Part shown: piece by piece, positions 6,355 to 54,700 of the stretch
Numbering within the stretch: the first letter of the stretch is position 1
Layout of the letters: each line of letters opens with the position of its first letter
Origin: Caldifarciminota bacterium
GTDB lineage: Bacteria > Hydrothermota > Hydrothermia > Hydrothermales > JAJRUZ01
NCBI GenBank assembly: GCA_024277525.1
Contig: JAJRUZ010000042.1
Location: 124,001-188,000 of the forward strand
Length of the DNA stretch: 64,000 nt
Reading direction: 5' to 3'
Program-made: the position numbers and the translations under genes
Notes under the pieces: model-generated
What the model saw: the letters and a program-made list of their open reading frames with translations, nothing else
Database searches by the model: none
What the model was told of the DNA's origin: nothing

Positions 6355-6581
6355 CAGTTAAGAATTATTCCTTTTAAAAGGTTATATTCAAAAAGATAAT
6401 TCTCTTTTATAATGAGTGTTTCATTTTCGGTAAATAAAAATTTACTCTTTTTTCTTCCTTTTTTATTTTTTATTTTTTTTATGGCTTTTGGTTTAAAAAA
6501 TAAAATTTTGTCCGGTATCTTTACAGGAAGTGTTATATAAAAAAGAAGAAATAATGTTTTAAGGATTTTACCGGTATACAA
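6354..6581 (-). CDS. Hypothetical small basic protein between C25 peptidase and nuoI
   Basis: 75 aa ORF overlapping both neighbours in the same strand run. Confidence 0.45.
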   Translation of the reverse strand: MYTGKILKTLFLLFYITLPVKIPDKILFFKPKAIKKIKNKKGRKKSKFLFTENETLIIKENYLFEYNLLKGIILN

Positions 6582-9500
6582 TTAATTTCCCCCTTTTTTT
6601 AATCTTTTTACCGTTTGCAGGGTCCTTGACTTCAAGTAAATAAATATAGAGTCCGTTTGCAATGTCTCTTTTTATTCTCCATTTAAGGGAATTAAAACCC
6701 GCGGAAAACATCTGATAGGGTGATTCAAAAACCGGTATTCCTCTCATAGTATATATTTTAAGCTTGCAGAGGGCTTTTTTTGAAATTTCGAACCCGAGAA
6801 AGAAAAAAGATGAGGCAGGATTCGGATAAGGTATTACTTTTCTTACAAAAAGTGACTCTGCGAATGCTGTGACATAAAATTGTCTTAAAATTTTGCCCCT
6901 GTTATCAAACGGATCATAAGCAGAAAGACTTAAATTATGCTTACCCGAAGAGAGGTTCTTAAGTTTATAGTTAATATACCCTTTCTGAAAACTTCCCGGC
7001 TTATAATAAAATTTTTCATTTAAAGAAATTATCTCTTTCCCATCAATGGATAAAAGGATACTGCTATCTTTTGCAATATTTATTCCATTTTCGTCAAATA
7101 TTTCTATATAAAGGTTGAAATCAGGTGGAAGTGTGTCATTGTTTTTAAAAGGTTTTCCATTCACTGAGAGTTTAATTTCCGGTGCTTTGTAATCAACGAT
7201 TTGATTATCGGATAACTTTACCGGAAAGGAATCAATAAAGGCAAGTTCACCGAATCTGGTTGTGTTATAGGATATAACCCTTAAATAATCGGAATTTTTC
7301 TTCGGTAAAATAAATTTAAATTTTGAAACATTTGCATTATTATAACCTGCTCCCCTGAAAAGGGTTTTTCCCTTTCTATAAAGATAGTATCTGTAAGTTA
7401 TACCCCCGTGTTTAAAAACAAGGGTATCGATATAGGGTTCTGTTTCAATGTTTAAAAAAGAGACATCCGAGTTTTCTTTAAATTTTATCAAAAAAGAATC
7501 TATTGTTCGGAAAAATCTTAATGTGTCTCCGAAATATTTAAAATAAGAGTAAGAGAGGGTATCGGGTTTATAGGAGAAAATTCCCGTATTTTCCGGGAAT
7601 TTGTATAAAACAGTAGGGTCACCGAGATAGAGATATTTTTTACTCCCGAATCGTGCAAAATAGGCACATTCTCCGACAGAGTGAATTTTGAAATCTTTAA
7701 AACACTTAAAAAATTTTTGAATTACTGATTGATTTTCAAAAGCCTGGGTCAATGCTGCTGAGCCCAATCCCCCCGAGCCTGCTTTCATTATCCATTTTTC
7801 GCCTATTGCACCTTCCGGTCTATCAAAATTCATTGTTTTACAAGAGCCTAAGAGGATAAAATGGGGTCTGTTATTAACTTCCATCAAATCTATATCATCC
7901 GGTGTCAAGATTTCCTCATGAGCCAGTTGGTTCGGGTTTCCGTGCCCGAAGTAAAAAACAAATATAAAACCGTTTTCAAGAAGGGAGAGTAATGCCTTTG
8001 TTGCTGCAGGCTTTTTGCCTGCTTCACGGGGATAATCAAGCATGTAAAACCCCTGCTTGTCAACCGTATTAGGCAATTTTTTTAAAATCTCTGTCACCTG
8101 ATTTGTGTGCCCTGTTGCATCAAAACTTCCTCCACTTCCTGTTGTATCATCTGCTATACCCAGTACTTTATTTTTAAAATCATTTTTTTCAATACCTTTT
8201 TCATAATTTATTATTCTGTTCAGAAAACTCAGCATCTCTGCCGCGTTTTTTCCGGGTATTCTACCTATCACCATATCAGGATCAAACACACCTCCGTCAA
8301 ATTCCACAAAAAAATCGTCATAGGTAAAAGGAGGATGGTTAATATCCACTTCATATCCGTATTCATAAGGGGGTATATAATTTTTAACCCCTGATTTCAG
8401 AAAGTTTCTGAAATCGTATATTCCCTTACCCGCAAGCAACACATAATACGGAACAGGATCAAAATTTAAATAAGCAAATTTTAGGAAATTCCTTAAAGCA
8501 ACAGGATCCCTCACTCCGAAACCGAATTCCTCAAAAATATCTTCTATATTAATATAAATTATTTCGGGATCATTTATTTTTACGGTATCAATATAAAAAT
8601 TATTTTCCCTCCAATATATGTATCTTCTGAAAAGATTTCTGAAAGATTCGGGTCCTATTATCAAATAATCTGCTCCCTTTATCTCATTCAGAAATTTTCT
8701 GTTGAACTTTTGGATATAAGGATGAATGTATTTCTCTGCGTAAACAACCATAAAAGTATCCTGCTCGGGTTCAAGTGAAAAGACAATTGAATCAGAATTA
8801 AAATAAAAACCCTTTATTTCATAATATTCAAAGGGATTTTTGACTTTAAACAATTTGCCTCTTTTCGCAAATTCACCCCTCAGAAGGAAATTCTTCTTTT
8901 CATTTACATAAACATAAAAAATCAAACTGTCTTTAATATCAAAAAGAAGCGAATTGTATTTTACTTCAAAATAATCCAGATTAATCATTCCGTTAACATC
9001 AAGGGAAAATGAAGGTGAAGAATTTAATTTTTCTTTTATTTTTAATATCTCTTCAACCGGTTTTGATGTCGCAGGGTATGTTCTTTCAAAAATTATTTTA
9101 TTTGAAAGTAGGATTTTTAAATTTAAAGAGGTATTATTTTCCGGTTTTTTCCTTCTTATAAATACAAAGTTTATCCTTGCGGTGTCAGGCAAAGGATTAA
9201 AAAAATTGAGGTTATTTAATCTGAAAACAGTATCAAGTATCTGCTCTCCCACCCATTTTAATCCCGCCTTTGCAAGATTATAAAAATTCTTTTCGTGTCT
9301 TGTAACTTTTGTGCCTTTTGTTTCGTATTTATAATTTCCCGGTGTTCCGTCTATACTTTGAACAAAAATTCCTGAGTCACCTTCAAAAGATAAAAAATAT
9401 ACCGAATTTTCGGTGTATGGATGAAAATAAAAAGATATCTTTCCGTTTTCAATCCTGTATCCCTCCGCCTTAAATCCAACAAATAAAATTGTGTCTCTTT

Positions 9501-10335
9501 CATCAAAGATTCCCTTTTCTCCATTATCTATGAAAACGAAAGGAACTTTTTCCGGTTTTACATCAAAAGAATCGGGTGAGACAGGAAGTGCTTTTAATCT
9601 CGCATAAAGACATATCTTTGAAATATCAAGATTTTCAGGAGAAATATCAAGATTTTCTTTTATATCATCATAGGTAATATAATACACTCCGTTTTTAAAA
9701 ACAAAAATTTTCAGCCATAATCTTGTTTTGTCCCAGAAAGATGTATATGTTTCTTTCTTTTTATATTCAAGATTTGTTCTTTTAATCAAAAGTCTTTCGT
9801 ATAAGCCGGTGTTTGTTTTTCTTTCAGGAAAGATTCTGTAATTTTTCAAGTTTTTATTTTTTACTTTTACATTAATCAGAATCTTGTTAATGATTTCAAT
9901 TTCATTTTCTTTAATTTGAACAGGAAACAGAATAAGATACAATACATTTTTGAATCTCAAAAAGGAAGTTCCTTTTGGAATAATAATCTTTCCCGGAAAA
10001 GGAGTTTTATATTCTTTTTTGATTTCATAGAAAGAGAGACCGTCTTCTCTTATCTCAGGGATTCTTTTTATGTCATAAAACTTTGTGATTTTTCGTTTTT
10101 TAAGGATTTTATAATTAATTTCATATTCCGCATTCGGTTCTATTTCAATCGGAATTAAATATGAGGGAAGGTCTGGTAAGCCGGGGTCAAATTCCTTGAA
10201 TCTTTCTCCTTTAAAAAAAAGACAATTTGATAATGTTTCAACCTTTACATCGGGCTTAAATACGAAGGAAATTTCGTTTTCTGAATTTTTAAGTATTTGG
10301 AGATTTGTAAGTATTGAGAATAAGAAAAGAATCAT
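6568..10335 (-). CDS. C25 (gingipain-like) cysteine peptidase, PorU-like, with C-terminal sorting-like domain
   Basis: Catalytic His context FVFYFGHGNPNQ and Cys context FILLGSCKTMNFD; C-term VIPYPNPASSFFFLGFEISKKALCKLKIYTMRGIPVFES..NGLYIYLLEV. Confidence 0.85.
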   Translation of the reverse strand: MILFLFSILTNLQILKNSENEISFVFKPDVKVETLSNCLFFKGERFKEFDPGLPDLPSYLIPIEIEPNAEYEINYKILKKRKITKFYDIKRIPEIREDGLSFYEIKKEYKTPFPGKIIIPKGTSFLRFKNVLYLILFPVQIKENEIEIINKILINVKVKNKNLKNYRIFPERKTNTGLYERLLIKRTNLEYKKKETYTSFWDKTRLWLKIFVFKNGVYYITYDDIKENLDISPENLDISKICLYARLKALPVSPDSFDVKPEKVPFVFIDNGEKGIFDERDTILFVGFKAEGYRIENGKISFYFHPYTENSVYFLSFEGDSGIFVQSIDGTPGNYKYETKGTKVTRHEKNFYNLAKAGLKWVGEQILDTVFRLNNLNFFNPLPDTARINFVFIRRKKPENNTSLNLKILLSNKIIFERTYPATSKPVEEILKIKEKLNSSPSFSLDVNGMINLDYFEVKYNSLLFDIKDSLIFYVYVNEKKNFLLRGEFAKRGKLFKVKNPFEYYEIKGFYFNSDSIVFSLEPEQDTFMVVYAEKYIHPYIQKFNRKFLNEIKGADYLIIGPESFRNLFRRYIYWRENNFYIDTVKINDPEIIYINIEDIFEEFGFGVRDPVALRNFLKFAYLNFDPVPYYVLLAGKGIYDFRNFLKSGVKNYIPPYEYGYEVDINHPPFTYDDFFVEFDGGVFDPDMVIGRIPGKNAAEMLSFLNRIINYEKGIEKNDFKNKVLGIADDTTGSGGSFDATGHTNQVTEILKKLPNTVDKQGFYMLDYPREAGKKPAATKALLSLLENGFIFVFYFGHGNPNQLAHEEILTPDDIDLMEVNNRPHFILLGSCKTMNFDRPEGAIGEKWIMKAGSGGLGSAALTQAFENQSVIQKFFKCFKDFKIHSVGECAYFARFGSKKYLYLGDPTVLYKFPENTGIFSYKPDTLSYSYFKYFGDTLRFFRTIDSFLIKFKENSDVSFLNIETEPYIDTLVFKHGGITYRYYLYRKGKTLFRGAGYNNANVSKFKFILPKKNSDYLRVISYNTTRFGELAFIDSFPVKLSDNQIVDYKAPEIKLSVNGKPFKNNDTLPPDFNLYIEIFDENGINIAKDSSILLSIDGKEIISLNEKFYYKPGSFQKGYINYKLKNLSSGKHNLSLSAYDPFDNRGKILRQFYVTAFAESLFVRKVIPYPNPASSFFFLGFEISKKALCKLKIYTMRGIPVFESPYQMFSAGFNSLKWRIKRDIANGLYIYLLEVKDPANGKKIKKRGKLIVYR

Positions 10336-10656: not shown

Positions 10657-12423
10657 TTATTTATCAAAGCCGAATCCGTATTCATTATTTTCGGTTATTT
10701 TAAACCATTTCTTTTTATTTCTGCCTTTTAATTTGTATTTATCCCTGCCCCCTAAATCAAAAAATACACCGTAAGTAGGCATGTTTTTTCTCAGGGATAA
10801 AAATCTTAATTTTAAATTTGCGTCACCCAGATTTATTCCCTTTTTGATATTATATTCATCATTTCCTTCTTTATCTATAAAAATTCCCATACCGTTTGCA
10901 TTGCCTGCTCCCAGACTTAAATTCGGTGAGAAATATTTATCATTGCCCTTTTCATCCATAAAATAACCAAGTGTAAAATCATGACCCGCACCCTGTGCCA
11001 TATTTTTTTCTGCATAATAAAAATCATTGCCTTTCAGATTTAAAAGTATTCCTACACCGAAATGAGCACCTGCACCTTGCACATACCATATCCCTTTCAG
11101 GCTATCATTCCCTTCCTCATCAAACAGAATACCGACACCGTACCAGTAGGAACATCCCTGAGCAAAAACACCCGCTGAATATTTATCATTTCCTTTGTAA
11201 TCTATTAAAAGCCCTATACCTCCTGCAAGTGAGTGACCATCAATATAATCTGCTCTTTTACCGAACCCCATGCCCTGAACCAAATTTGCATTATGTTCTT
11301 TTGTCTGAGGAGAAGGAAAAATTATGTCCTTATCTTCTCCTATATACTTATCGTCACCGTATTTATCAAATAATAACCCTGACCCCAAGTGATATCCGAA
11401 TCCTTGCCCGTATTGATAAATATGATAAATATCATTGCCTTTTTTGTCAAATAATATGCCGGAACCGAAGGCACCTGCACCCTGACCGAAAACTTTTCCA
11501 TCATAAAAATCATTGCCTTCAAAATCAATAAGCATTCCTGTTCCGAATATACCTGAACCTAATCCTCCGAATTCACAATAATATTTGTCGTTTCCCTTAA
11601 AATCTATAAGAACCGAATAAGACAGAATACCTGCTCCGAAAGAAAAACTATTTGCTTTATACACATCATTTCCGGAGACATCTATTATAAGAGAAAAATA
11701 AGGAATCTTTTTTAATTTTGAGATATAGACATCGTCTCCTCCGAAATCAATCACAAGAAAAGGATTTTCAAGTAAAATTGTATCATTTTCTTTACCTCTA
11801 ATTATAATATCTCCGTAAGGCGTCTTCTCATAATATTCATTTTCAAAGTCACAATTTTTCAAAGAATCGATAATTTCATTGATTATTAGACAAAAATCCA
11901 TCGCACCTGTAAATAAATATAAATAATCAACTTTATCAATTGAACTTTCAAGGAGTTTTGAATCTTCTTCATAAAAATAACTCTTTATAAGTTTTAAAAT
12001 TGAATCCCTTTTTATTTCTTCAAAGGCATAATCGATCCATTTTTTTGTATTTTGGGTCGCTTTAATATAAAAAGATATTATCTTTGATAATCCTTTTTTA
12101 TTTATTCCTTTCCAATATTCTTTTACCGGGTTTTTTATAAGGTCTCTTCTGACATTTTTATTTATTAAAAAGCTTGCCGTTGAAAGCAGAAAATTCGGTA
12201 AGGTGTCCCTTTGAATTATTATCCCTGCGATTGTTTTTATATAATTTTCGATAACAAAAGGATTTTTTCTGAAAACATCGTAAATAAAGAGTTTTCCTTT
12301 ACCGCCTCCGTAAAAGTTCATGTATTCGTCTTTGATGTAAAAGTCTCTTTCGTCCATTTTGAAAGTTTTGAAAAGTTTCTTCCAAGGAGTTTGGATAATA
12401 AGAAAAATGATAAGGATTTTCAT
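10657..12423 (-). CDS. Exported repeat protein with about 12 tandem [IVL]L[IF]DxxGNDxY..QGxGxxxGxG units
   Basis: Short hydrophobic N-term MKILIIFLIIQTPW; about 26-aa repeats visible in the translation. Confidence 0.8.
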   Translation of the reverse strand: MKILIIFLIIQTPWKKLFKTFKMDERDFYIKDEYMNFYGGGKGKLFIYDVFRKNPFVIENYIKTIAGIIIQRDTLPNFLLSTASFLINKNVRRDLIKNPVKEYWKGINKKGLSKIISFYIKATQNTKKWIDYAFEEIKRDSILKLIKSYFYEEDSKLLESSIDKVDYLYLFTGAMDFCLIINEIIDSLKNCDFENEYYEKTPYGDIIIRGKENDTILLENPFLVIDFGGDDVYISKLKKIPYFSLIIDVSGNDVYKANSFSFGAGILSYSVLIDFKGNDKYYCEFGGLGSGIFGTGMLIDFEGNDFYDGKVFGQGAGAFGSGILFDKKGNDIYHIYQYGQGFGYHLGSGLLFDKYGDDKYIGEDKDIIFPSPQTKEHNANLVQGMGFGKRADYIDGHSLAGGIGLLIDYKGNDKYSAGVFAQGCSYWYGVGILFDEEGNDSLKGIWYVQGAGAHFGVGILLNLKGNDFYYAEKNMAQGAGHDFTLGYFMDEKGNDKYFSPNLSLGAGNANGMGIFIDKEGNDEYNIKKGINLGDANLKLRFLSLRKNMPTYGVFFDLGGRDKYKLKGRNKKKWFKITENNEYGFGFDK

Positions 12424-12523: not shown

Positions 12524-14153
12524 TTACTTTATCTTTATGATTTTTGTGTTAAGAATTTCTTTTCCTCTTTTATTTTTAATTTTTATATAATAAATACCGG
12601 GTTCCAGATAACTTACATTAACCCTATTCTCACCGTTTTTTAATTTGATTGTGCTGATTTCTCTTAAAGAAACATCGTATATCTTAATTGACATATTTTT
12701 AAGTGAAAGGTTTGTAATAATATAGAAGTGTTCATTTAATAAGTTAGGGGATATTAAAATTTTTCTGTTCTTTGGGTTAAATTTTCTTTCGGTAATAAAT
12801 GTAGTGTAGCAAATTGTTGAGATAGTGGGGGATACATCTGTCTCTGTTGAGGAAATAGATAAATGGGTAGCATTAGTTTGGGTTACTGTGAAATTAATAG
12901 GTAATTTTGAGGTATTGGTTGTTGTTATGTAAGGTGTAAAACTTGTTATATAGTTACAATTCGGAACATCTCCGGAAGAATTTGTTCGAATAAATAAATA
13001 ATCTTCACCCCATGTTACAGTATCTGTTGTAACTCCTGCAATTATTATAGAGCTATCATTTAGTTCCTTCAAATCATTTGTCCAATCCAAATCACCGATT
13101 TTATATACACGTGCCCATCGGAAATTACCCGAACTATCAACTTTTATCACCGATGCACTCCAGTTCACTGAATCTGTCTCAAAGTATGAACCTAAAAGGA
13201 TGCCGTCGTGGCTTAGAGATGCATTAAGTGCTTCATCCCATTTACCTGTGATTCCGAAGGTCTTTTGCCAAATAATATTACCTGATGTGTCAATTTTTAC
13301 AACCCACAGATCTCCCTCCGTTGTTCCCGGGAAAACAGTATTTCCCGGAAGATAATAGCTGTTTCCGTTTTCTCCTTCTATAAAATTCCATAAAGCATCG
13401 TCACTTGTATCTCCATAGGCATATTGCCATTTTATTGAACCGGTAGATGAATTTATTTTAACAACAAAGATATCGGTTCCTCCGTGTCCTGCTCCATCCG
13501 TTATACCTGAAATCACAAAATTATTGTTCTTATCTACAAAACCCCTTGCTACATTCTTCATAGGGACCGGAGGGAGCGTCATCTCCTGCAGAGCCATAAG
13601 TATTCTGCCGTACAATATTTCCGTTAAAATCCGATTTTAATACCCAGACATCTGTGAGACCTGCACCGAAAGAATTTGTTCCTCCAACAATAAGATAGCC
13701 ATCAGGAGCGACATCCACAGACCAGGCTTGTTCATCTCCTGCACCCCGAATCTTCTCTCCCACTGAATATTACCCGATGAGTCAAGTTTAACAATCCAGA
13801 AATCATAATTGCCTTCGGTTGTTGTCCATCCTGCGAAAATAAGTCCGGTGTCCGGAGTTTCTTTAATATCAACAGCCATATTGTCGGTCGTATCACCGTA
13901 AGTTTTTGCCCACCGGAGTTGTCCGTTGATATCGGTCTTTATAACAATTGCATCACCGTCGCCCTTAGCAGAAAAACCGTCAGAAAATCCTGCAGACACA
14001 ATACCTAAATCGAATGTCTGTATAACAGATTCTACTTCTTCAGCAGAGTAAGCTCCGGAAGCCCTATGGTTTTTAAAAATAAAGAATCTTGACATATTGC
14101 TTCCTTGGGGGGGGCAATCATGCATATTAGAGGAACTAAGATTTTTTTTTCAT
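12524..14153 (-). pseudogene. Secreted beta-propeller-like repeat protein with CTD, disrupted by several frameshifts
   Basis: ORFs 13637-14125, 13530-13763 and 12524-13615 carry successive pieces of one repeat pattern (YGDTxDxA..DGxxxxGxTxxxGxxDxxVxKxDSSGNIxWQKTYG); C-term CTD in the last ORF. Confidence 0.8.
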
Positions 14154-36333: not shown

Positions 36334-39300
36334 ATGAGGGTAAAAATAAAATATCTTATCTTGCTCGGGGGTATTGTTTTTACATACCTCTGGGCAGGAA
36401 CAACGGGTAAAATTTCCGGTCGTGTTACGGATGCGACGACCGGAGAAGGTTTACCTTTTGCGGTTGTGAGAATAAAAGGGACCCAGATGGGTGCTTATAC
36501 GGATGATCAAGGATACTATGTGATATTGAATGTTCCTCCTGGTAAATATGACATTATTGTTTCTTATACCGGCTATCAGCCCGGCTATGTGAAGGATGTG
36601 GTAGTAGAAGTTGATAGGACTATTGAGGTTAATATCGCTTTAAAGCCAACTACGGTGGTGGCTGAAACAATTGTTGTGGAGGCAAGAGAAAAACTTATCA
36701 GACCCGATGTGCCTGAAAGTAAGCAAACATTTAAAGGAGAACAAATTCAATCAATTCCTGTTACTACAATTCAGCAGACGGTTGCAATTTCAGCAGGTGT
36801 TGTTGAAAGAGGCGGCTTGCATATAAGAGGCGGAAGACCTGATGAAGTAGTGTATGTAGTGAATGGTGTTGAAATAAGGGATCCTTACACTAATTATACA
36901 AGTGCGGGTGTTCCTCTTATTTCCCTGGAAGAAGCTTCAATTTCAAGAGGAGGGTTTGATGTTGATCAGGGTACGACTGCCTCAGGAGCAATTTCCATTG
37001 TGACGAGGAGCGGCGGTGACAAGTACGGCTTTGAACTCAGGACAACGACTATGGATTTTTCATTTCTTGGAAACACAATTTACGGATATCTTGATGAGAA
37101 TACAGGTGATTATTATAGGGATTTTGTCCTCGGAAAGGAGACTGATATAAGTAAAGTACGGGTTAAGAGGCATAGACAGGGGGAAATATTTTCCGATTTT
37201 GCAATATATGGACCTGTATTACCCGGAAGGAGGGACTGGGCTAAATTTTTCTTCAGCGGCGAATACCGAACAGATAGAAATAGAGTTCCTGTAGCAATGG
37301 ATGAATCTTGGAGGGATAAAAATTATGCTTTTAACGGTAAAATAACAGTTCCTTTCGGGAATACATTTCTTCTCTTCTGCTCAGGATTTTACAGATATCA
37401 AAAATGGAGAAACTGGGATGATAATTGGAGGTTTGCCCTTGATAATTTCTGGAGATATGAGGCAAGGGAATTTCAGATTTCCGGTGGTATAAACTGGCTT
37501 GTTTTGAATAAATATATGAATGAGTTCAGATTCGGATATTATAAGAGACACTGGAAAAGAAATGTCCTTGAAGATGTGGATAATGATGGAGTGGATGATT
37601 TTGATGATAGGGACGAAGACGGTTGGGTTGAAGTTGATTTGGATTATTTCAGACCAGTTTATTATGATTCTGTTCAGAAGAAGTGGGTTGTGGGTGATTA
37701 TAAGGTTGGTTTGGATTCTTTAATGAAACTTTATGAAGGGTATGAAGAGATGGTTGAAGTTAATGAAGCAGAGGGTTATGTTGAACTTCCCTTTTATTGG
37801 TGGGAGGCAGGTGTTGCTTCTCTCTACCCTGCCGTCTCACAGGGGCCTCCCTGGTGGCCACTTGATACTACTTATACTGCACCCTACAACAAAGCGGGAT
37901 GGGGACAGAGAACAAGATTGGATATAGAGGTGCTTGAAGTTTATAAATATGACGAATACGGAAATATGCTTCTTGATACCGTAATAGAAATGTCGGGTAA
38001 ATGGTACAGATATCCTTTTGAGCCGACACCGGAATATGTAAGAAGTGGGAAATCTTCCTTAGAAGACCTTTTAGGAGAAGGATGGAAAGAAAGAAGAGTT
38101 CTTCTAAAACTGGGAAATCAATACATGCCTCTTCCTTGGGTTTATCCACGGGCTCAGTGGGGAATCGGTGAAAGTAGATTATTTACATTTTCATGGAGAT
38201 TAACTTCACAGCTTGTTAAGAAAACAAAGACAACAGCCGGTCATGAACTTCTTGCAGGATTTGAGTACAAGAGAATGGGAATTACACGATATACGGTTGA
38301 TTATGCAGGTGGGTTATCAAATATTTATTTTGATTTTGTAAATCCTCCTTTTGAGAAAAGACCGGGGGACCCTGAGAATTTCATTGATTGGTTTGAAGAT
38401 CACCCGGTGAATCCCTGGCAGGTTGCTTTTTATTTAAGGGATAAAATAGAAATGGAAGGAATGGTAGCAAAAGTCGGTTTCAGGTTTGATTATTATGACC
38501 CGAACGGTTGGTTTTTCACTGATACACTTAAACCTTTTGATCTTGATCCTGTATACGGTGGTCAAGGTATCAGGTTATTAAGTAAAGCTGCAAGAGCAAA
38601 GGGAAGATGGTATATATCACCGAGGCTCGGTATTTCACATCCTATAACAGAAAGGGATGTATTGCATTTTACTTATGGGCATTATTTCCAGGTTCCACCT
38701 TACTATCAGATGATTACTTCTTATGTCTTTTCGGGTGCATTCCCGGTTGTAGGAAATCCCAATCTTGAGCCCGAAAAGACAATAGCATATGAATTGGGTA
38801 TCAAGCACGGTTTCACAGAAGACTTTATAGTGGATATTACCGCATTTTATAAAGATATATTCGGATGGGCAAGGTCAAATATGTATCCTATCGGACAGAC
38901 AGGTGAAAATTATACTTCTTTTACTAATGAAGATTACGGATATGCAAGGGGAATTGAGGTCTCATTTATCAAGAGAACAGGTGGTGCATTTTTACCTTAT
39001 CTTGGACTTAATGCTAATTATACATATCAAATAGCTCTCGGTTCCTTTTCCAGTCCCTGGCAGGCATACAGATGGCAATGGGCAAGATATCCTCTTCCTC
39101 CAAAGGAAATGTACCTTGATTGGGATATAAGACATAAATTGAATGTTGTAATCTCTTGGATAGTACCCAAGGGAGCAAAAGGTTTTGCATTTGATGACTG
39201 GGGGATTACAATAAATCATTCTTATAGCTCCGGTGCACCCTGGACGCCTCCTTTCAGGAGTTCCAGAGATGCAATGGAAAAAATTAATGCAGAAAGAATG

Positions 39301-39540
39301 CCTTCTACTCAGAATACTGATTTAAGAATTTTCAAGAATTTCTCCATAGGTGGGCATGGTTCACTTCAGCTTTTCTTGGATGTGTATAATCTACTTAATG
39401 TGAGAAATTTAAACAGTATTGCTGATGCACAATGGTATGATCAGTTTGGTGACCCTGAGGGCGAGGCAAAGAACCTTACGGTTTGGGGACAAAGAAGAAG
39501 GGTACGATTCGGTTTCTTTATTAAATTTGCTGGATTTTAA
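36334..39540 (+). CDS. TonB-dependent receptor with carboxypeptidase-regulatory-like N-terminal domain
   Basis: GKISGRVTDATTGEGLPFAVVRIKGTQMGAYTDDQGYYVILNVPPGKYDI; plug IRGGRPDEVVYVVNGVEI; barrel C-term RVRFGFFIKFAGF. Confidence 0.92.
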   Translation: MRVKIKYLILLGGIVFTYLWAGTTGKISGRVTDATTGEGLPFAVVRIKGTQMGAYTDDQGYYVILNVPPGKYDIIVSYTGYQPGYVKDVVVEVDRTIEVNIALKPTTVVAETIVVEAREKLIRPDVPESKQTFKGEQIQSIPVTTIQQTVAISAGVVERGGLHIRGGRPDEVVYVVNGVEIRDPYTNYTSAGVPLISLEEASISRGGFDVDQGTTASGAISIVTRSGGDKYGFELRTTTMDFSFLGNTIYGYLDENTGDYYRDFVLGKETDISKVRVKRHRQGEIFSDFAIYGPVLPGRRDWAKFFFSGEYRTDRNRVPVAMDESWRDKNYAFNGKITVPFGNTFLLFCSGFYRYQKWRNWDDNWRFALDNFWRYEAREFQISGGINWLVLNKYMNEFRFGYYKRHWKRNVLEDVDNDGVDDFDDRDEDGWVEVDLDYFRPVYYDSVQKKWVVGDYKVGLDSLMKLYEGYEEMVEVNEAEGYVELPFYWWEAGVASLYPAVSQGPPWWPLDTTYTAPYNKAGWGQRTRLDIEVLEVYKYDEYGNMLLDTVIEMSGKWYRYPFEPTPEYVRSGKSSLEDLLGEGWKERRVLLKLGNQYMPLPWVYPRAQWGIGESRLFTFSWRLTSQLVKKTKTTAGHELLAGFEYKRMGITRYTVDYAGGLSNIYFDFVNPPFEKRPGDPENFIDWFEDHPVNPWQVAFYLRDKIEMEGMVAKVGFRFDYYDPNGWFFTDTLKPFDLDPVYGGQGIRLLSKAARAKGRWYISPRLGISHPITERDVLHFTYGHYFQVPPYYQMITSYVFSGAFPVVGNPNLEPEKTIAYELGIKHGFTEDFIVDITAFYKDIFGWARSNMYPIGQTGENYTSFTNEDYGYARGIEVSFIKRTGGAFLPYLGLNANYTYQIALGSFSSPWQAYRWQWARYPLPPKEMYLDWDIRHKLNVVISWIVPKGAKGFAFDDWGITINHSYSSGAPWTPPFRSSRDAMEKINAERMPSTQNTDLRIFKNFSIGGHGSLQLFLDVYNLLNVRNLNSIADAQWYDQFGDPEGEAKNLTVWGQRRRVRFGFFIKFAGF

Positions 39541-43648: not shown

Positions 43649-46600
43649 ATGAAAAAGATAACATGGATTCTTTTGATAGTTTCCTCCACGCTTTTTTCTG
43701 CTTTTAATGTGGGGGATACCGCGACATTTACAACTTATATAGTGGGTCCATTCGCCGGATACACTTCAAGGAAGGTAATGTGTCAAGCTGTTACCTCTCA
43801 TGCCTATATCTTCACACAGGAGGATTATTACCCTATAAATCATGTTAAAGGAATGCAAGGGCAGGATATATTTGCACTTTCAAGTGATGGTTCTTTGTTT
43901 AAATATGATGCTTCTACGCAGAGTTGGAAAAAAGATACATTTGATGTTAATTATTTTGTAATTAAGCCTGTCTCCGCAACTAAATATCATATAATCATAG
44001 GAACACCTTCGGGTGTGGCATATAAAAGTAATACTACTTCCTGGACCGATAAGTTACCCGATTATGATGCTGTTCGTCAGGATCTCAATATCAAAAAATT
44101 TGCAGTTTCTCCAATCGGGGTAAGTTCATTTTATAGAGTATATTATATGAATAAAAAAGGTTTCTATTATGCAAATGGTACCCAGGCATCGGGTCCGAGT
44201 AATTCCTGGATTCCGCTTGAAGGAATATTTGTTGATGAGAATTTTCAGAAATATAATGAAGGAGATTCGGTATGGGGCGGTGTGGTTGAGACATTTACAG
44301 ATTCAGTACTATTGGTTTCCACAAAGGCTCTTACCTTTGGAGATACTTCTAATTATTCTACTGGTGTAGATTTTAGTATAAGTGCATATGATTTTACAGC
44401 GTATTTTACAATTTATACCGATTCTGTAAATACCCCTGAATTCAGAATAGATCTCAAAAGAGAAAGTAGTAATGGAACTTATACTTCCCTTTATATAGAG
44501 TTTAAAAATTCTTCTGTTTATTTAAATGACCAAAGGGTAGGACCTATAAAACCCGGAGACGGATTTAATTTTACTTTGGTTGTTAAGGATAATAAAGCGG
44601 TTTTGAAGTATTCTTCTTTGAAAGGTGTTTCTGGAGAGAGTGATACCGTAAATTGTTACTATCAAAATTCCTTTGATAGATTTAAAGGTTTCACCTTTGT
44701 TTTCGGTTCCAACTCTTCCTCTAAATTCTATATAGATGATGTTTTCATTGTGCCTTATGAAGTTAAAAAAATAGCGGGTCATGCATCTGATAGAAAGCGT
44801 TGTTTCTTCTTGCTTCCTTATGCTTTGGTTATATATGATAACAATGTTCCTGAGTGGAGACTTATTTATACTGCTTTACCCGGTAGTAGTGAATTTGTTG
44901 ATCTTGTGAGTGTTCCGTATGCCGATAGCCTATTGTACCTTGTTATGAAATCAAAAGTAGATACCTTAGAAGTATTTTCAATATTGAAATTAGAAGATAC
45001 TACGGGTGATTTTTCAGGACCGCCTGTAGTTTCTACTATTACTGATTTTACGGGTGAGTATCTTACCTTTTCTATTAACTTTTCCAATCCTTCCCAACTT
45101 GCTTTCTCTTATAAAAATGAATCCGGAATGCCTCATCTTTTAATTTCGAAAGATGGCGGATCTACTTTTACCGAAGAAATGTCAGGATTTGCGGAATGGG
45201 GTCCTTTTGACTGGACAGGGGTCGTGCATTCTTTCTATTTTGAGAATGATAATACCTATTTTGCCGGAACAGAGCAGGGTGTATTCAAAAAGTCAGGAAC
45301 CGGTGACTGGGAAGAAATTAACAGAGGGATACTTAAAAGGTTTGTTACAAAATCAGAGATTCAGGCGTTTGCAAACCTTGTGGAGACTTTTCCGTGGGAC
45401 GCGTTTTATAACGAACTCGGACCTTTCGGTGTTAATAGGGATAATGACGATCATGTTATTATTCTGCTTTCAGAAACCGGTTATGTGCTTTCATCCGATG
45501 CAAAAATTCCGATAGGATATGCTTATAATGCGGATGTTATTAAAGATAACAAAGTCGAAATGATTCAAATAGACCCTATTGATACAAAAGTGGATACTTT
45601 GAGGGATTTATCTAATCCGGCTTTACTTAAAGATTTGGCTTATGCATTGGCTGGTTTACATCTGATTACATGGGACCCTGATGAACCTGCATGGTTAAGG
45701 GTAGGAGCAGAAGTTGTAGGTTATCATATATTAAAAGCAGGTTCTTTGGATTCACCAAATAAGGCTGATACATTTATTCTTCCTGAAAAGAACTTGTTGC
45801 ACACTTATATTAATACAGATATTGAAAGTGAAAGGAAATATGCTTTTCCCTTCATATATTATCTTGTTGAAAAGAAAGGAATTTCTGTATTAAGAAACTG
45901 GTGGCAGGATAAGAAATATCAAGGACTTCTGGGACTCACACAATTTGCAAGAGGTGATGGTGATACAGCTTTGTTCTATGAAGATGTCCTTTATAATGTT
46001 ATGACGGGAGGGTTTAAAAATATTGTGGCGGATCTTACTTATAAAGATTTTGTTGAATACAAAGCCTGGGTTTCCGGTTATTCAGAAAAGTTATCTCCCT
46101 ATTCTTTTGTTGCTATAAAAATAAAGAATCCGACAGACTACGGAGTTATCACATCATTTAAATATAAAGGGACAATCACGAACGGACTTTTCATTCATCC
46201 TGAAAATGAGTCGCTTATAGTTACAGTGCCGGAACCCAAAGGAAAAGAAAGGGAAGGTATATTAACTTTGCCTAATGATACAACAACTATAAAGAAATTC
46301 TTATTTGTCGGTTATGACGATGATACAATTGGAGGACCTGATGAAGCGAGTTTCAGGTTTGCAATAGGTGTTGATAATAAAGCCCCTGAGGTTGTAACCG
46401 GCTTCTTTCACAGTGATTTACTGAACAAAAGAGTTAATCTTTTTATTTTCGGAAATGAAAAGATTTACAAAGACCCTGCTAATTCCAAGCCTTATGTTTT
46501 TATGATTGCCGGAAATGATACTACGGAATGTGAGGTTTCTGTAAAGTCTTCATATATTGATACACTTCCTTCAGGTTCACCGGTTGCTGCTATGTATGTT

Positions 46601-47329
46601 TCGGATGTGGATCTTAATTTTGTGAATAAAGAAGCAAAAATTCTTATAAAAGGTGCAGACCTTCTCGGAAATGATTTTAATGATATTGAAATTATATTTA
46701 ATGAATGGTTAACACAAAAAGGAACTTTTGCTTATAGTGATGGTTCTCTTATTATTGAGACACCTGATGGAGCGTTTTCTTCAATAAAGTCCATTCTGGT
46801 TTCAAAGACGGATTTTGTGCCGTTTGAGAGCGATGCAAGAGCAAAAAGGGTTTCTCCTTATTATGTAATAGGTAATGAAAATCTTTATGCACTGCGTCCA
46901 TGTGTGGTTAAAATAGAATATCCTGGTAAAGGAACCCTTTACCGATATGAGAATGGGATGTGGGTGAGAGTGGAAGGTGGTCTTGATAACAACGGTTTTT
47001 ATGTTGCTCCTGTTCAGAAATTCGGGGTTTTTACATTTTATGACGGGGATACTCCATCGAAACTTAAATTCTCGCTTTCGTTATCTAAGTATGTTTTAAA
47101 TAGCAAGGAGCCCCTGTTTGTGAATATAACATTACCCGAAAGGTTGAATGCGGAACTTAAACTCTATAATGCCTCCGGTAGGGTTATAGAGGTGATTAAA
47201 CAAGGAATATGGAATTCGGGTTCTCATGTTATAGGTGTTAATGTGAATAAATTACCTTCCGGAAGTTATTTCTTAATTTTTAAAGCAAAAAGCCTGAAAG
47301 TGACAAAGAAGGTGATTAAGGTTGAATAA
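43649..47329 (+). CDS. Large secreted protein with degenerate metalloprotease-like core and CTD
   Basis: Signal MKKITWILLIVSSTLFS; LGPFGVNRDNDDHVIILLSE..LAGLHLITWDPDEPAWLRVGAEVVGY; C-term ELKLYNASGRVIEVIKQG..PSGSYFLIFKAKSLKVTKKVIKVE. Confidence 0.7.
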   Translation: MKKITWILLIVSSTLFSAFNVGDTATFTTYIVGPFAGYTSRKVMCQAVTSHAYIFTQEDYYPINHVKGMQGQDIFALSSDGSLFKYDASTQSWKKDTFDVNYFVIKPVSATKYHIIIGTPSGVAYKSNTTSWTDKLPDYDAVRQDLNIKKFAVSPIGVSSFYRVYYMNKKGFYYANGTQASGPSNSWIPLEGIFVDENFQKYNEGDSVWGGVVETFTDSVLLVSTKALTFGDTSNYSTGVDFSISAYDFTAYFTIYTDSVNTPEFRIDLKRESSNGTYTSLYIEFKNSSVYLNDQRVGPIKPGDGFNFTLVVKDNKAVLKYSSLKGVSGESDTVNCYYQNSFDRFKGFTFVFGSNSSSKFYIDDVFIVPYEVKKIAGHASDRKRCFFLLPYALVIYDNNVPEWRLIYTALPGSSEFVDLVSVPYADSLLYLVMKSKVDTLEVFSILKLEDTTGDFSGPPVVSTITDFTGEYLTFSINFSNPSQLAFSYKNESGMPHLLISKDGGSTFTEEMSGFAEWGPFDWTGVVHSFYFENDNTYFAGTEQGVFKKSGTGDWEEINRGILKRFVTKSEIQAFANLVETFPWDAFYNELGPFGVNRDNDDHVIILLSETGYVLSSDAKIPIGYAYNADVIKDNKVEMIQIDPIDTKVDTLRDLSNPALLKDLAYALAGLHLITWDPDEPAWLRVGAEVVGYHILKAGSLDSPNKADTFILPEKNLLHTYINTDIESERKYAFPFIYYLVEKKGISVLRNWWQDKKYQGLLGLTQFARGDGDTALFYEDVLYNVMTGGFKNIVADLTYKDFVEYKAWVSGYSEKLSPYSFVAIKIKNPTDYGVITSFKYKGTITNGLFIHPENESLIVTVPEPKGKEREGILTLPNDTTTIKKFLFVGYDDDTIGGPDEASFRFAIGVDNKAPEVVTGFFHSDLLNKRVNLFIFGNEKIYKDPANSKPYVFMIAGNDTTECEVSVKSSYIDTLPSGSPVAAMYVSDVDLNFVNKEAKILIKGADLLGNDFNDIEIIFNEWLTQKGTFAYSDGSLIIETPDGAFSSIKSILVSKTDFVPFESDARAKRVSPYYVIGNENLYALRPCVVKIEYPGKGTLYRYENGMWVRVEGGLDNNGFYVAPVQKFGVFTFYDGDTPSKLKFSLSLSKYVLNSKEPLFVNITLPERLNAELKLYNASGRVIEVIKQGIWNSGSHVIGVNVNKLPSGSYFLIFKAKSLKVTKKVIKVE

Positions 47330-47410
47330 TTTATTAAAAATGGTTTATATTAAAAAATCACTTATCAAAAAAGGGGTTCAATTCCCCAAAAACATTTGGA
47401 GGAGGTTTTT

Positions 47411-49771
47411 ATGTGGCGTAAAGTAATGCTACCGCTCCTTTTGACAGGAGCGCTGATGGCAGGTGAATTTTTTGCTGTAAAACCTGCCAAAAAGTCTGCG
47501 GGAAAAAGCGATATAGTTCCTCTTAAGAATGTCAAAATGCAGGTTCAAAAATTATGGAATAATCCTGTTATTACTGCTGCTCAATGGGGACAGGGATTAG
47601 GTGCTGCCGCTGTTCTCGGTCCAGCAGATACACCTTTGATTGACTGGTGGACAGAACTTGCATGGACGGGAGATATTAAATTCGGGATCTGGAATATTTA
47701 TGACCCTAATGCTCCAGCATATGTATTAAGTGGTATAGACCCTGGAGATACATTTGCCGCATATTTTAAACCACCTGCAGCCTGTACTATCGTAGCTTTT
47801 GGTATTTACTATTTTAACGATGAAGGTTCTCCTACAGCAGACTTAACATATTTGGCGGCATGGACAAGACCCGAAGTTGACCCAGAATTTATTTGGGATT
47901 ATGGTGCAGGTTTAGATCCTACTGCACCTCTTGGTGCATATATTGATTATCATTATGGATATAATTATCCTGCCCCTAATCCTCCTTACGATGATACTAA
48001 TTTAATAACATCTCCTACCTTAATCTCGGTTCCTCAAGATACTCTTAATATTCAGTATACTATATTTTATCCAGATTCCGGTGCCATAGATGATTCCACA
48101 GGAGATGAATTTTGGGTTGCTTGGACACCTTTGACTGCCGGAGCATCAAATGCAATGCCCTGGGTAGTCATTACCGCAAGTTATGGAAAAGGTGATTGGA
48201 AATGCTGGATTTATCAGCAGGACCTTTCTGGATTCGGCATAGATCCCGGTTGGTATAACCAATGGCACGGATACTGGATGGATGCATTCGTATGGATTTA
48301 TGAAGACCCGCCTTCGATGTGGAAAGAGGTGACAGATTTACCTTGGACATTTTCAACCGGTCCGTTTAAAGTTAGAGCCCATATTGTAGATATTCTTGGT
48401 ATTCCGGCAGCAAATCAAGGTGTAAGAGCATGTACACTTCTTGTCTGGACCTCGGCAGGTGATACTTTTTATATTGATGGAGGAAAGCCTGTTGAAGGAG
48501 ATTCAACCGATGGTTGGTGGGAATTCACATTCGGACCATTCACTCCCGGGGATACGATTTACTATACAGGGTATATAGCGTATGATTACAGTGGAGGTTC
48601 TTCATCCGAAGGAAAAGTTCATTCCTTTGTTATCCTTCCTTATGACCCGAAATATAAAGTTCTTTTTGTTGATGAAGACCAAGATGCCTGGGCACAATAT
48701 GCCTATGATATATTGAATGAATTGGTTGACCTCAAAGATACTGTTGTTAACGGTACACCTGCTGCTTATTATTGGGATGCTGCGGTTTACGGATATCCTG
48801 ATTCCTCTGTTTTGGATATCAATAAATTTGATATGGTCTTCTGGACAGGTTGGGGACCCGAAATTTTTGCTTCGGATACAGCTCTTGTTAAAGCGTACTT
48901 AGATGCAGGTGGACAATTGTTTATTTCATCTCAAGACTTGGTTGTTGGAGGTTTTGGTATAGGAGACTGGACCAGTGAAGTCAACATAAAGAATGATTAT
49001 CCCGGTCACTTCCTCCATACTTATTTAAAAATGGGAATTGCTCTTGATGATTACATAGGAGGTGTAGTTTCCTCTAATTACGATACAGTGAATGCATTTT
49101 ATGGATTCCCGGGCGATACAATTTCTGATCCTTGGGGTTACGGAGATTCTATACTTTATTACGGATTCTTACATTATAATTTTGCCGGATATGTATTCCC
49201 CGATGACTTAGGAAATGGTGTTTATGATACTGTCTTTCCTTGTTTCTTCTATGAGAAGGGTGTACCTGATAGAGAAAGTGGAACCCCTGCTGCTTATTGG
49301 TATGACGGAACTGCATACGGTGAACCCTATAAAATTGTCGTAGCCTACTTCAATTATCAATTCCTTGTAGAGGGTGTCCAGTATGATACAGCAGGTAATG
49401 TTATTAGCTATTATCAGGATACTTTTGATTTGAAGTTGTTGACAGAGAGAATACTTGAACTTTTCGGTTACACAAGTGTCGGTGAATTGCCCAGCTTCAA
49501 ACCCAAGGCTCTGAGACTTTCACTCCGAGCACCTTCCATTGCCGGACTCGGAAATGTCAATCTCTTTTATACAATTCCGAATGCAGGAAATGTAAGAATT
49601 GCACTTTATGATGCATCTGGTAGGTTAATAAAGAATCTCTTTAACGGCAGAAAGAAAGCAGGTGCCTATGCCATTTCATTCCCGACTAAGGATCTGAGAG
49701 CAGGAACATACTTTGTAAAACTTGACTTTAACGGAAAATCTAAGACACAGAAACTGGTCTTTCTCAGGTAG
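47411..49771 (+). CDS. Secreted surface protein with GATase-like segment and CTD
   Basis: Strong SD GGAGGAGG; signal MWRKVMLPLLLTGALMAG; C-term NVRIALYDASGRLIKNLFNGRKKAG..RAGTYFVKLDFNGKSKTQKLVFLR. Confidence 0.8.
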   Translation: MWRKVMLPLLLTGALMAGEFFAVKPAKKSAGKSDIVPLKNVKMQVQKLWNNPVITAAQWGQGLGAAAVLGPADTPLIDWWTELAWTGDIKFGIWNIYDPNAPAYVLSGIDPGDTFAAYFKPPAACTIVAFGIYYFNDEGSPTADLTYLAAWTRPEVDPEFIWDYGAGLDPTAPLGAYIDYHYGYNYPAPNPPYDDTNLITSPTLISVPQDTLNIQYTIFYPDSGAIDDSTGDEFWVAWTPLTAGASNAMPWVVITASYGKGDWKCWIYQQDLSGFGIDPGWYNQWHGYWMDAFVWIYEDPPSMWKEVTDLPWTFSTGPFKVRAHIVDILGIPAANQGVRACTLLVWTSAGDTFYIDGGKPVEGDSTDGWWEFTFGPFTPGDTIYYTGYIAYDYSGGSSSEGKVHSFVILPYDPKYKVLFVDEDQDAWAQYAYDILNELVDLKDTVVNGTPAAYYWDAAVYGYPDSSVLDINKFDMVFWTGWGPEIFASDTALVKAYLDAGGQLFISSQDLVVGGFGIGDWTSEVNIKNDYPGHFLHTYLKMGIALDDYIGGVVSSNYDTVNAFYGFPGDTISDPWGYGDSILYYGFLHYNFAGYVFPDDLGNGVYDTVFPCFFYEKGVPDRESGTPAAYWYDGTAYGEPYKIVVAYFNYQFLVEGVQYDTAGNVISYYQDTFDLKLLTERILELFGYTSVGELPSFKPKALRLSLRAPSIAGLGNVNLFYTIPNAGNVRIALYDASGRLIKNLFNGRKKAGAYAISFPTKDLRAGTYFVKLDFNGKSKTQKLVFLR

Positions 49772-51769: not shown

Positions 51770-54700
51770 GTGCAAAGCATAAAGGTTTCACCTTCAGGAA
51801 GTGTTTATATCGGAGTATTCTTCGGAGGAATATATAAAAGTATAAATAAAGGGCAAACTTGGTTTCCTTTAACAGATGATAATGATTCTTTATTTTTTAA
51901 AGAAATTCCCTATCTTAAATTACATTACTGGAATCCCGACAGTGTAATTTTTTTCTTGGCGGTATCGGATTCTCAAAACGGCTCAGGCAAGGTTTATGAA
52001 CTTTATTTTACCTATGATGCAGGGAATAACTGGATAAAAATACCGATTTTCCTTTTACCCGGAGATGTAATTGAAGGACCTGTCGGACTCGGAATAATTG
52101 ATACTTTTCTATTCATAGGGTTTGACAATAAGGTACTCAAATTTAATATATCAAGATGGACCTTTGATGCCTTAAATTCTATCCCTTCCACACTGTTTCC
52201 TATAAAAGATTTGAATGACTTTTTTATACCCGGAACAGGAAGAGGTCTTGTAATATCAACACAACAGGGTGTCCATGTTTCCACCGATGCTGGAAATACA
52301 TGGACACAATTCCCAATAGGAGACACTGTGTTAAATGATACGGAAGTAAAAAAAACATTTATACTTCCGCCTTCTGCTTCTGTTCCTGCAGTTTGCTTTG
52401 CAACAGGAAGGGGTGTTTTTTATCTTGACCCTGTATCAGGGCAGTGGAAAAAAAGCACAAATTCACCCTACGGAGTTGAAGGTTTTTGGTATGTGGATAC
52501 CGCAAAAGTATATGCATATAACTGGAATGAAATTTATGTAAGTTCAAATTATGGAGTGGAATTTACAGATACTTTAAAATTACCGACATCTATATTTCCT
52601 TTAATTTACGAACTTTCCTCTATTCGGGATTCTTTGCTTGTTGCAACATCCGCAGGTGTCTTTTATACAACGGATAACGGCTTAAGTTTTAATTTAAGAA
52701 ACAGGGGTATAAGGGAAGTGATGTTGACTTCCGTGGATATTAACCCTTCCATTTCTTCAGAACTAATTATTTATTCAGCCGGTTCCGGTGTAATGAAAAG
52801 TAATGATTACGGAAATTCATTTGTTTATAAAAATAAAAAACTTGCCCCCTTAATAACAAAAGCAAGTTATCATCCCGGGCAAGGTGATGTGCTCTATGCT
52901 TTAAGTTATTTCGGAGGAATATATAAAAGCATTGACGGAGGAGAAAACTGGAATATTTTAAATTCCACGGATACAATACCGATAACGGAATTTTTTATCC
53001 ACCCGATTTTCCCAAAGTGGATATACTTGGGAACAAAAGATGGTCTTGTAGTTTCAAAGGATAGCGGTAATACATGGTTAAAGGTTATAGACGGGGTGAG
53101 CACTGTAACCGGTATTGATGTGAGTAAAGAAAATCCCGAAAGGATTATAATATGTACTTATCTGAACGGTTTATTTATAAGTAATGACACGGGTTTGAAT
53201 TTTACAAATTTCAGCAATCCTCCTGAAATTGATGGACTTATAAAGGTTAAAATAAGCCCGGTGCATGACAGTGTAATATATGTATTAAAAAATTCGGATA
53301 AAATTTTTCTTACAGAAGATTTCGGACAATCATGGAAGCCGGTATTTTCTAACCCTTCTTATATTTTTACCAATATGGATGTTTTTGAGAATAACCCGGA
53401 AATTGTATATGTTTCACTTTTTAATTATCCGGGAATACTTCAATCCCTTGATAGAGGAAGAACATTTTTTAATTTCGGAAAGGGATTAAAAGACCTTTCC
53501 TTTTATCCGTTAAGTTTTAATATTAAATTGGATTCAAAAACTAATATACACAGAGCCTATTGTGCTACTGTGAACGGCTTATTTGAGATTAAAGATAGTG
53601 TATTTGTTTTAAACGGTAATGTAACACCCCCTGTATTTACACCTGACGGAGACGGAGTGGATGATTCCTGCATTTTTTACTTCAACGCAGAAGATTCCTC
53701 AAATATAGGAATATTATACGCATATATTTATGATTCCTTGGGAAACATTGTGAATAAATTTAAGACCTTGAAAGCAAAAGAGTTAACCCTTCAAACCTCT
53801 ATCATATATTACGGTTATAATGACACCGGAATACAGATTCTACCGGGCACATATACAATTGAAGCATTTTCCTATGACGGTCTGCTTAATTATGACACAT
53901 TCAGAACAACATTTAAAATAGATTATGTACCTTTACAGACTTCAAATATTATTTCACTTGCCAATACTTACCAGCAAAAATTTGCCCTTACGAATGACGG
54001 AAAAATTTATGTGTTTTATGTTTCATGGAGAAATTTTCCGGAAGTTTATTACAGTATATCGGAAGACGGAGGAATAACATGGAGTTATCCTGTCAATATT
54101 TCAAATTCCAGAAGAAGAAAATCAATTCTGCCTTGTGTTGATGTAAATATAAAAGGAGAGATAGGGGTTATATTTTTGGAAGAAAATATACTCGGTGTTT
54201 TAAGGCCTGCCTTTGTTCTTATTGACTCATCGGGTGTAGTTGAAAAAATTTCCTTTACAGGAAATAAAAACTGCGGAGAAGTTTTTTTAATATCGGACTT
54301 GCAGGGCAATTTCCATGTTGTCTGGTCCGAAGAGGTATCCACTTCAAATTACGATATATATTATCGCAGATGGGATACTCAAAGCAATGCTTTTGATCCG
54401 GTAATAAGACTTACTACTTCCTCGGTTCCCTCTATGAACCCCTTTTTGGTAACCGATGAGTTCGGAAATCTCTATCTTTATTATTCCGAAGGAATTAAAG
54501 GTTCCGAAGAGATTCATCGCATGAAGGGAAATATATCCGGAACATGGGACTTAGCATCCGACTCAACCCTGTTTGATGGCTCCTCCCCTCAGGTTGTTAT
54601 AGATAATATAAACAATGTCCATTTATTCAGATTGTATAACGGTAGAATATACTATACTCAATTTATCCCGGATTCCGGATGGAGTTCTGATGTTATTGTT

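Follow-up and report, generated by a model that had tools for sequence, protein, structure and literature searches.

The stretch of DNA analysed here, called the window throughout, comprises 64,000 nucleotides and contains on its minus strand a gene for a 588-residue GND repeat protein that begins with ATG (Table 1). This open reading frame is coding beyond doubt, because 35 orthologue-like proteins of other genomes align along it with 28–44% identity. The preliminary description of this DNA had confined the repeat protein to positions 10657–11770, which correspond to the C-terminal 371 residues only of the full frame at 10657–12423. The gene is located between a tRNA-Ser and a split repeat protein, in the neighbourhood of T9SS-type proteins. 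The split gene (12524–14125, minus strand) codes for a protein that is delta-60/SBBP-like and ends in a Por_Secre_tail domain, spread over two open reading frames; the missing middle of ~75 amino acids lies in another frame, which implies two compensating frameshifts that reflect either an assembly error or a decaying gene. A gingipain-type Peptidase_C25 of 1255 amino acids with a weak C-terminal sorting domain is encoded at 6568–10335 (minus strand), in a phylum outside Bacteroidota. Further along, the plus strand encodes three large proteins (43649–47329, 47396–49771 and 51770–55570) that all carry a T9SS-type sorting tail; Sortilin/Vps10 repeats are present in one of them, and a TonB-dependent receptor is encoded upstream of the three (36334–39540). 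The T9SS has been called specific to Bacteroidetes (PMC7463736). The GND protein itself returned no match to a T9SS sorting domain (PF18962 or similar; Por_Secre_tail), though such domains are present in nearby proteins, and it does possess a hydrophobic N-terminus; both features had been read correctly in the preliminary description. A hydrophobic 10-mer precedes the residue-30 position in 87 of 93 testable homologues, and these N-termini suggest that the protein is exported, either to the periplasm or to the cell surface.

Table 1. Features of the GND solenoid gene and its product, with the evidence for each
Feature	Position in window	Strand	Basis
Whole gene: putatively exported protein, helical domain then GND beta-solenoid	10657..12423	-	ORF, full-length orthologue alignment, AlphaFold2
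Signal-peptide-like hydrophobic N-terminus, residues 1-12 (MKILIIFLIIQT)	12388..12423	-	sequence
N-terminal helical domain, residues 13-188, nearly invariant Pro55	11860..12387	-	AlphaFold2 secondary structure
Beta-solenoid domain, residues 197-587	10663..11835	-	AlphaFold2 on residues 196-588 alone
Twelve DxxG[N/D]DxY turn motifs, residues 223-563	10735..11757	-	motif scan and shuffles
Long turn 6, conserved insert PSPQxxxHN...QGxGFGxRxDxxDGxSLAGG, residues 362-402	11218..11340	-	two alignments
Invariant Arg390, turn 6	11254..11256	-	79/79 unbiased and 69/69 pattern-selected homologues
Invariant Tyr426 and near-invariant Trp427, turn 7	11143..11148	-	Tyr 79/79, Trp 63/79, unbiased set
Invariant His454, turn 8	11062..11064	-	79/79
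His481 (62/79; Trp in 12) and invariant Asp482 (79/79), turn 9	10978..10983	-	unbiased set

The repeat array is regular, with interruptions at defined places. Twelve [D/N/E]xxGxD units begin at residues 226, 248, 274, 300, 326, 353, 408, 435, 462, 490, 517 and 556, giving unit-to-unit spacings of 22, 26, 26, 26, 27, 55, 27, 27, 28, 27 and 39 residues, and the autocorrelation of the protein peaks at 26–27 residues. Among 10,000 shuffled versions of the protein the mean number of motifs was 1.2 and the maximum 7, against 12 in the real sequence, so that the twelve units first noticed by eye are upheld. The idea of a near-continuous array of ~26-residue units stands as regards the period, less fully as regards continuity: one interval is only 22 residues long, a conserved insert in turn 6 accounts for the 55-residue interval, and an insert is also found in the 39-residue interval, before the last motif. 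Over 100 family members the consensus takes the form G-x-G-x-L-x-D-x-x-G-[ND]-D-x-Y-x-[AGS]...QG, which is more accurate than that derived from the single protein. The solenoid contains 65 glycines among 392 residues, and upstream of it Pro55 is kept in 96% of 100 family members.

AlphaFold2 modelling of the whole protein from 36 sequences (pLDDT 90.5, pTM 0.93) produced helices across residues 13–188 and a strand-rich coil across residues 197–587, and modelling of residues 196–588 alone from 67 more diverse sequences was also of high confidence (pLDDT 96.7, pTM 0.94). Each predicted turn consists of a strand ending in Asp, a DxxGND corner, a second strand bearing the Tyr and a Gly-rich QGxG stretch. 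A continuous coil of short strands with one coil per repeat, the hallmark of the beta-solenoid class, is thus seen in models from two alignments, in keeping with the solenoid put forward in the preliminary description. The protein is therefore confidently predicted to be a short helical domain followed by a continuous 12-turn beta-solenoid.

The search for known relatives yielded little. Pfam, NCBIfam and PHROGs contain no family describing the window protein, profile searches of PDB sequences found no relative, and the same family searches with 36 full-length homologues and 67 solenoid domains gave isolated or sub-threshold matches only. Foldseek, which may under-score repetitive folds of this sort, retrieved nothing from the PDB at E <= 0.001 with either the whole model (best E 0.26) or the solenoid alone (best E 0.31), and no match at that threshold among viral structure models (best 0.083). 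A search of the available literature for a GNDxY repeat found no description. The case for a solenoid without a solved structural relative is strong but not final, and neither a characterised repeat family nor a non-solenoid fold, the two outcomes that had been named as contradicting the preliminary description, was observed. We regard the GND solenoid as a real and widespread family of the beta-solenoid kind, unnamed in the libraries searched, with a probable active site.

The closest parallel in composition is the RTX or hemolysin-type beta-roll (PF00353), which like the GND protein is an exported, Gly/Asp-rich beta-solenoid with a G-x-D-x-hydrophobic core. The RTX motif is G-x-D-x-U, and the G-[ND]-D-x-Y core can be aligned with it. 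It is conceivable that the GND protein is a calcium-stabilised roll working as RTX proteins do, in which one cation per turn would sit at the D-x-x-G-[ND]-D corners and a structural or adhesive protein would fold upon export. Over ten turns of 100 proteins Asp occupies the first position in 94% and the sixth in 98%, the median net charge of the solenoid in the family is -26, and stacked carboxylates usually need cations; on the other hand the net charge of the window protein is merely -8, and hydrogen bonds alone can hold D-x-x-G-N turns. The resemblance to RTX repeats remarked on earlier did not hold up as kinship in the searches. PF00353 gave no match for the window protein at E <= 10, nor for the 36 homologues or the 67 solenoid domains at E <= 0.01, the PDB profile search matched no RTX chain though RTX structures are present in the PDB, and the Foldseek matches were not significant. 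A PF00353 search of eight genomes gave no match but carries no weight here: the E-value limit was too strict for a 36-residue model, and the controls returned nothing either. The tandem nonapeptide GGxGxDxUx, two copies of which build each 18-residue RTX coil, is absent; instead the GND protein has a single DxxG[N/D]DxY in every turn of 26–27 residues, a difference of motif that the preliminary description had rightly sensed. The GND protein further differs from RTX proteins by an Asp in place of the first Gly, a nearly fixed set of 12 turns and the invariant R-Y-H-D site described below. We have therefore rejected membership of the RTX family on grounds of Pfam, PDB profiles, period and motif, and consider a roll of RTX-like mechanism improbable. 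Calcium or another cation at the GND corners is nonetheless compatible with the acidic composition and may plausibly stabilise them.

Other repeat folds show partial similarities. Right-handed beta-helix enzymes (pectate lyase, GH28, GH55 and C5-epimerases) have turns of roughly similar length and can likewise harbour a site on consecutive turns, and a GH55 glucanase is among the weak, non-significant top Foldseek matches. However, no significant Foldseek match (E >= 0.26) or Pfam beta-helix match links them to the GND protein, most of whose turns bear a GND corner and a QG stretch. The SBBP beta-propeller repeat (PF06739) shares a D-x-x-G-N-x-Y beta-turn; the window protein scores 14.0 and 17.2 bits against it, below the Pfam cut-off of 20.5, one of 67 family members reaches E = 3.4e-6, and the GND protein is predicted to be a solenoid rather than a propeller. 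The recently solved Knotted Solenoid of Brevundimonas, a beta-solenoid class limited to certain bacteria, is considered by its authors to be related to pentapeptide-repeat solenoids (PMC13123833). We judged it to be a different fold; the GND motif and the Y-H-D site are not mentioned in the accessible portion of that article.

The family is found far beyond the window. Homologues are present in 113 of 147 genomes (~77%) of the window's own phylum, most likely WOR-3, and, using the solenoid profile at E <= 1e-10, in 44 of 99 Planctomycetota genomes (often in multiple copies), 33 of 101 Armatimonadota genomes and 11 of 54 Caldisericota genomes; records of Acidobacteriota and Eisenbacteria also contain the GND solenoid. 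A contig scan with the alignment recovered 496 relatives; an earlier scan with the single protein had recovered none. A phage or plasmid origin was considered and rejected: there was no plasmid match, no relative on viral contigs and no PHROG. The window's genome encodes a second copy of 886 amino acids with C-terminal HEAT repeats, and a quick tree, with several long branches and an uncertain order of branching in detail, places the HEAT-type subfamily apart from a clade of many phyla that holds the window type.

Comparison of these proteins turn by turn indicates that the coil has a fixed architecture. The motif count is 11–13 in 84 of 100 non-redundant members, and 11 of the 12 turns of the window protein best match the same-numbered turn in other proteins, a correspondence that extends even across phyla. 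The set of turns was therefore already established in an ancestor, and no multiplication of turns is under way. The GND solenoid is not an open-ended array, and the number of its turns hardly varies. Nor can one turn stand in for another, a property that the preliminary description missed together with the invariant Arg, Tyr, His and Asp on four of the turns. This level of order is hard to reconcile with a mere structural spacer, or with a low-complexity protein that is rich in Gly and Asp by chance and devoid of a specific site. The Gly-rich, repetitive sequence is what such a protein would have, but near-fixed turn number, conserved turn identity, invariant residues on particular turns, a high-confidence model and broad conservation make this explanation barely credible.

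The four residues, R390, Y426, H454 and D482, are found one each on four consecutive turns and are identical in all 79 scorable homologues of an unbiased set, gathered by a whole-genome search without any sequence pattern. With the repeat motif's own Gly, Asp and Tyr set aside, no other residue reaches 100% conservation in this set. A second set of 69 homologues, retrieved with a degenerate pattern containing Tyr-Trp, was kept apart because the pattern introduces a bias for Y426 and W427; it does not contain R390, H454 or D482, and all three are still invariant there (D482 in 68 of 68 scorable sequences). Position 427 is W, F or Y in most homologues. When the turns are placed in register, from which adjacency and exposure of the quartet were read, H454 and D482 coincide in position on adjacent turns, with Trp427 at the equivalent place one turn earlier, while Tyr426 is offset from this register by one residue and Arg390 is situated within the long turn 6. 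The equivalent positions in plain turns are variable, the top residue reaching for example 14–50% identity, and the site-bearing motifs are spaced by 27–28 residues compared with 26 in plain turns. All four residues are intact in divergent forms fused to PDZ, HEAT, HEAT plus TPR or Big_7 domains. Among the most distant members, whose alignment is less secure, three (L162, L163 and L168) keep the GND turns and do not have the quartet, a fourth (L171) has Gln at the His454 position and a fifth (L166) has none of those turns. As the three members build the turns without it, the quartet is dispensable for the scaffold, which fits the expectation for a functional site. A calcium roll would leave this turn-specific quartet unexplained. 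Such conservation is better explained by a catalytic or binding site than by a passive beta-roll, and the quartet resembles the active site of an enzyme.

What might such a site do? The substrates of beta-helical proteins are commonly extracellular polymers, which are acted on in a groove that follows the coil. His-Asp, Tyr and Arg are likewise a well-known combination for moving protons next to an anionic group; uronate lyases and epimerases are examples. On the strength of these two precedents we propose that the GND protein is an exported enzyme acting on an anionic polymer of the envelope or the environment. The ~26–27-residue turns would be held together by a buried Leu/Gly face and by the D-x-x-G-[ND]-D-x-Y corner of each turn. 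Turns 6–9 would display Arg390, Tyr426, His454 and Asp482, with Trp427 and His481 alongside, and a groove running along the solenoid would bring the four together as an active site. Asp482 and His454, at the same position of adjacent turns, may act as a general base/acid dyad, Tyr426 as the partner acid/base, and Arg390 may hold an anionic group of the substrate. This substrate would be a polymer outside the cell or in its envelope, an anionic glycan being the likeliest by analogy with other beta-helical enzymes. In our searches the gene had no homologous enzyme or known domain of defined activity. No neighbouring gene is conserved across phyla, and the context therefore gives no substrate.

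The quartet could alternatively bind a ligand or a metal without catalysis, and a non-catalytic ligand-binding scaffold is the chief rival to the enzyme. In such a protein the quartet and the neighbouring Trp and His would bind a sugar, a peptide or a metal ion, the molecule would serve as an exported receptor, sensor or chaperone-like factor, and HEAT, TPR, PDZ or Ig fusions would add partners. The fused domains are indeed protein-interaction modules and not enzymes, the aromatic position of Trp427 suits sugar stacking and the His/Asp cluster could hold a metal. Yet strict R-Y-H-D identity over deeply diverged subfamilies is seen more often in catalytic than in binding sites, and the gene has no transporter or sensor as a recurrent neighbour in different phyla; we consider this alternative rather unlikely, albeit a serious one. 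On balance we take the GND protein for an exported enzyme built on a new kind of beta-solenoid, or failing that for a protein that binds a ligand. The more specific proposal of an exported helical and 12-turn solenoid protein with an R-Y-H-D active site, of presumed chemistry and substrate, seems to us evenly poised between right and wrong. That it represents a previously undescribed class of beta-solenoid enzyme, with an Arg-Tyr-His-Asp site on four successive coils, common in WOR-3, Planctomycetota, Armatimonadota and Caldisericota and divided into at least two ancient subfamilies, we suggest a little more tentatively still.

If the proposal is true, a common exported family of mostly uncultured phyla combines a fold for which no related structure has been solved with a probable active site that has no name in databases, and a further type of solenoid with Asp/Gly corners can be set beside RTX rolls and pectate-lyase helices. 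The quartet turns a ‘hypothetical protein’ into a directly testable claim about four residues.

Fused homologues from Planctomycetota carry PDZ domains ahead of the solenoid, and elsewhere the solenoid precedes HEAT and TPR repeats or follows Big_7 Ig domains (six loci among these arrangements); one Big_7-fused protein also has a dockerin match. In 13 Armatimonadota loci a gene for a rhomboid-family protease, assigned by reading its sequence, comes directly after the solenoid gene, an adjacency that possibly represents lineage synteny, or else processing of the product. Four Caldisericota loci contain two tandem copies of the family with a conserved gene of ~326 amino acids between them.
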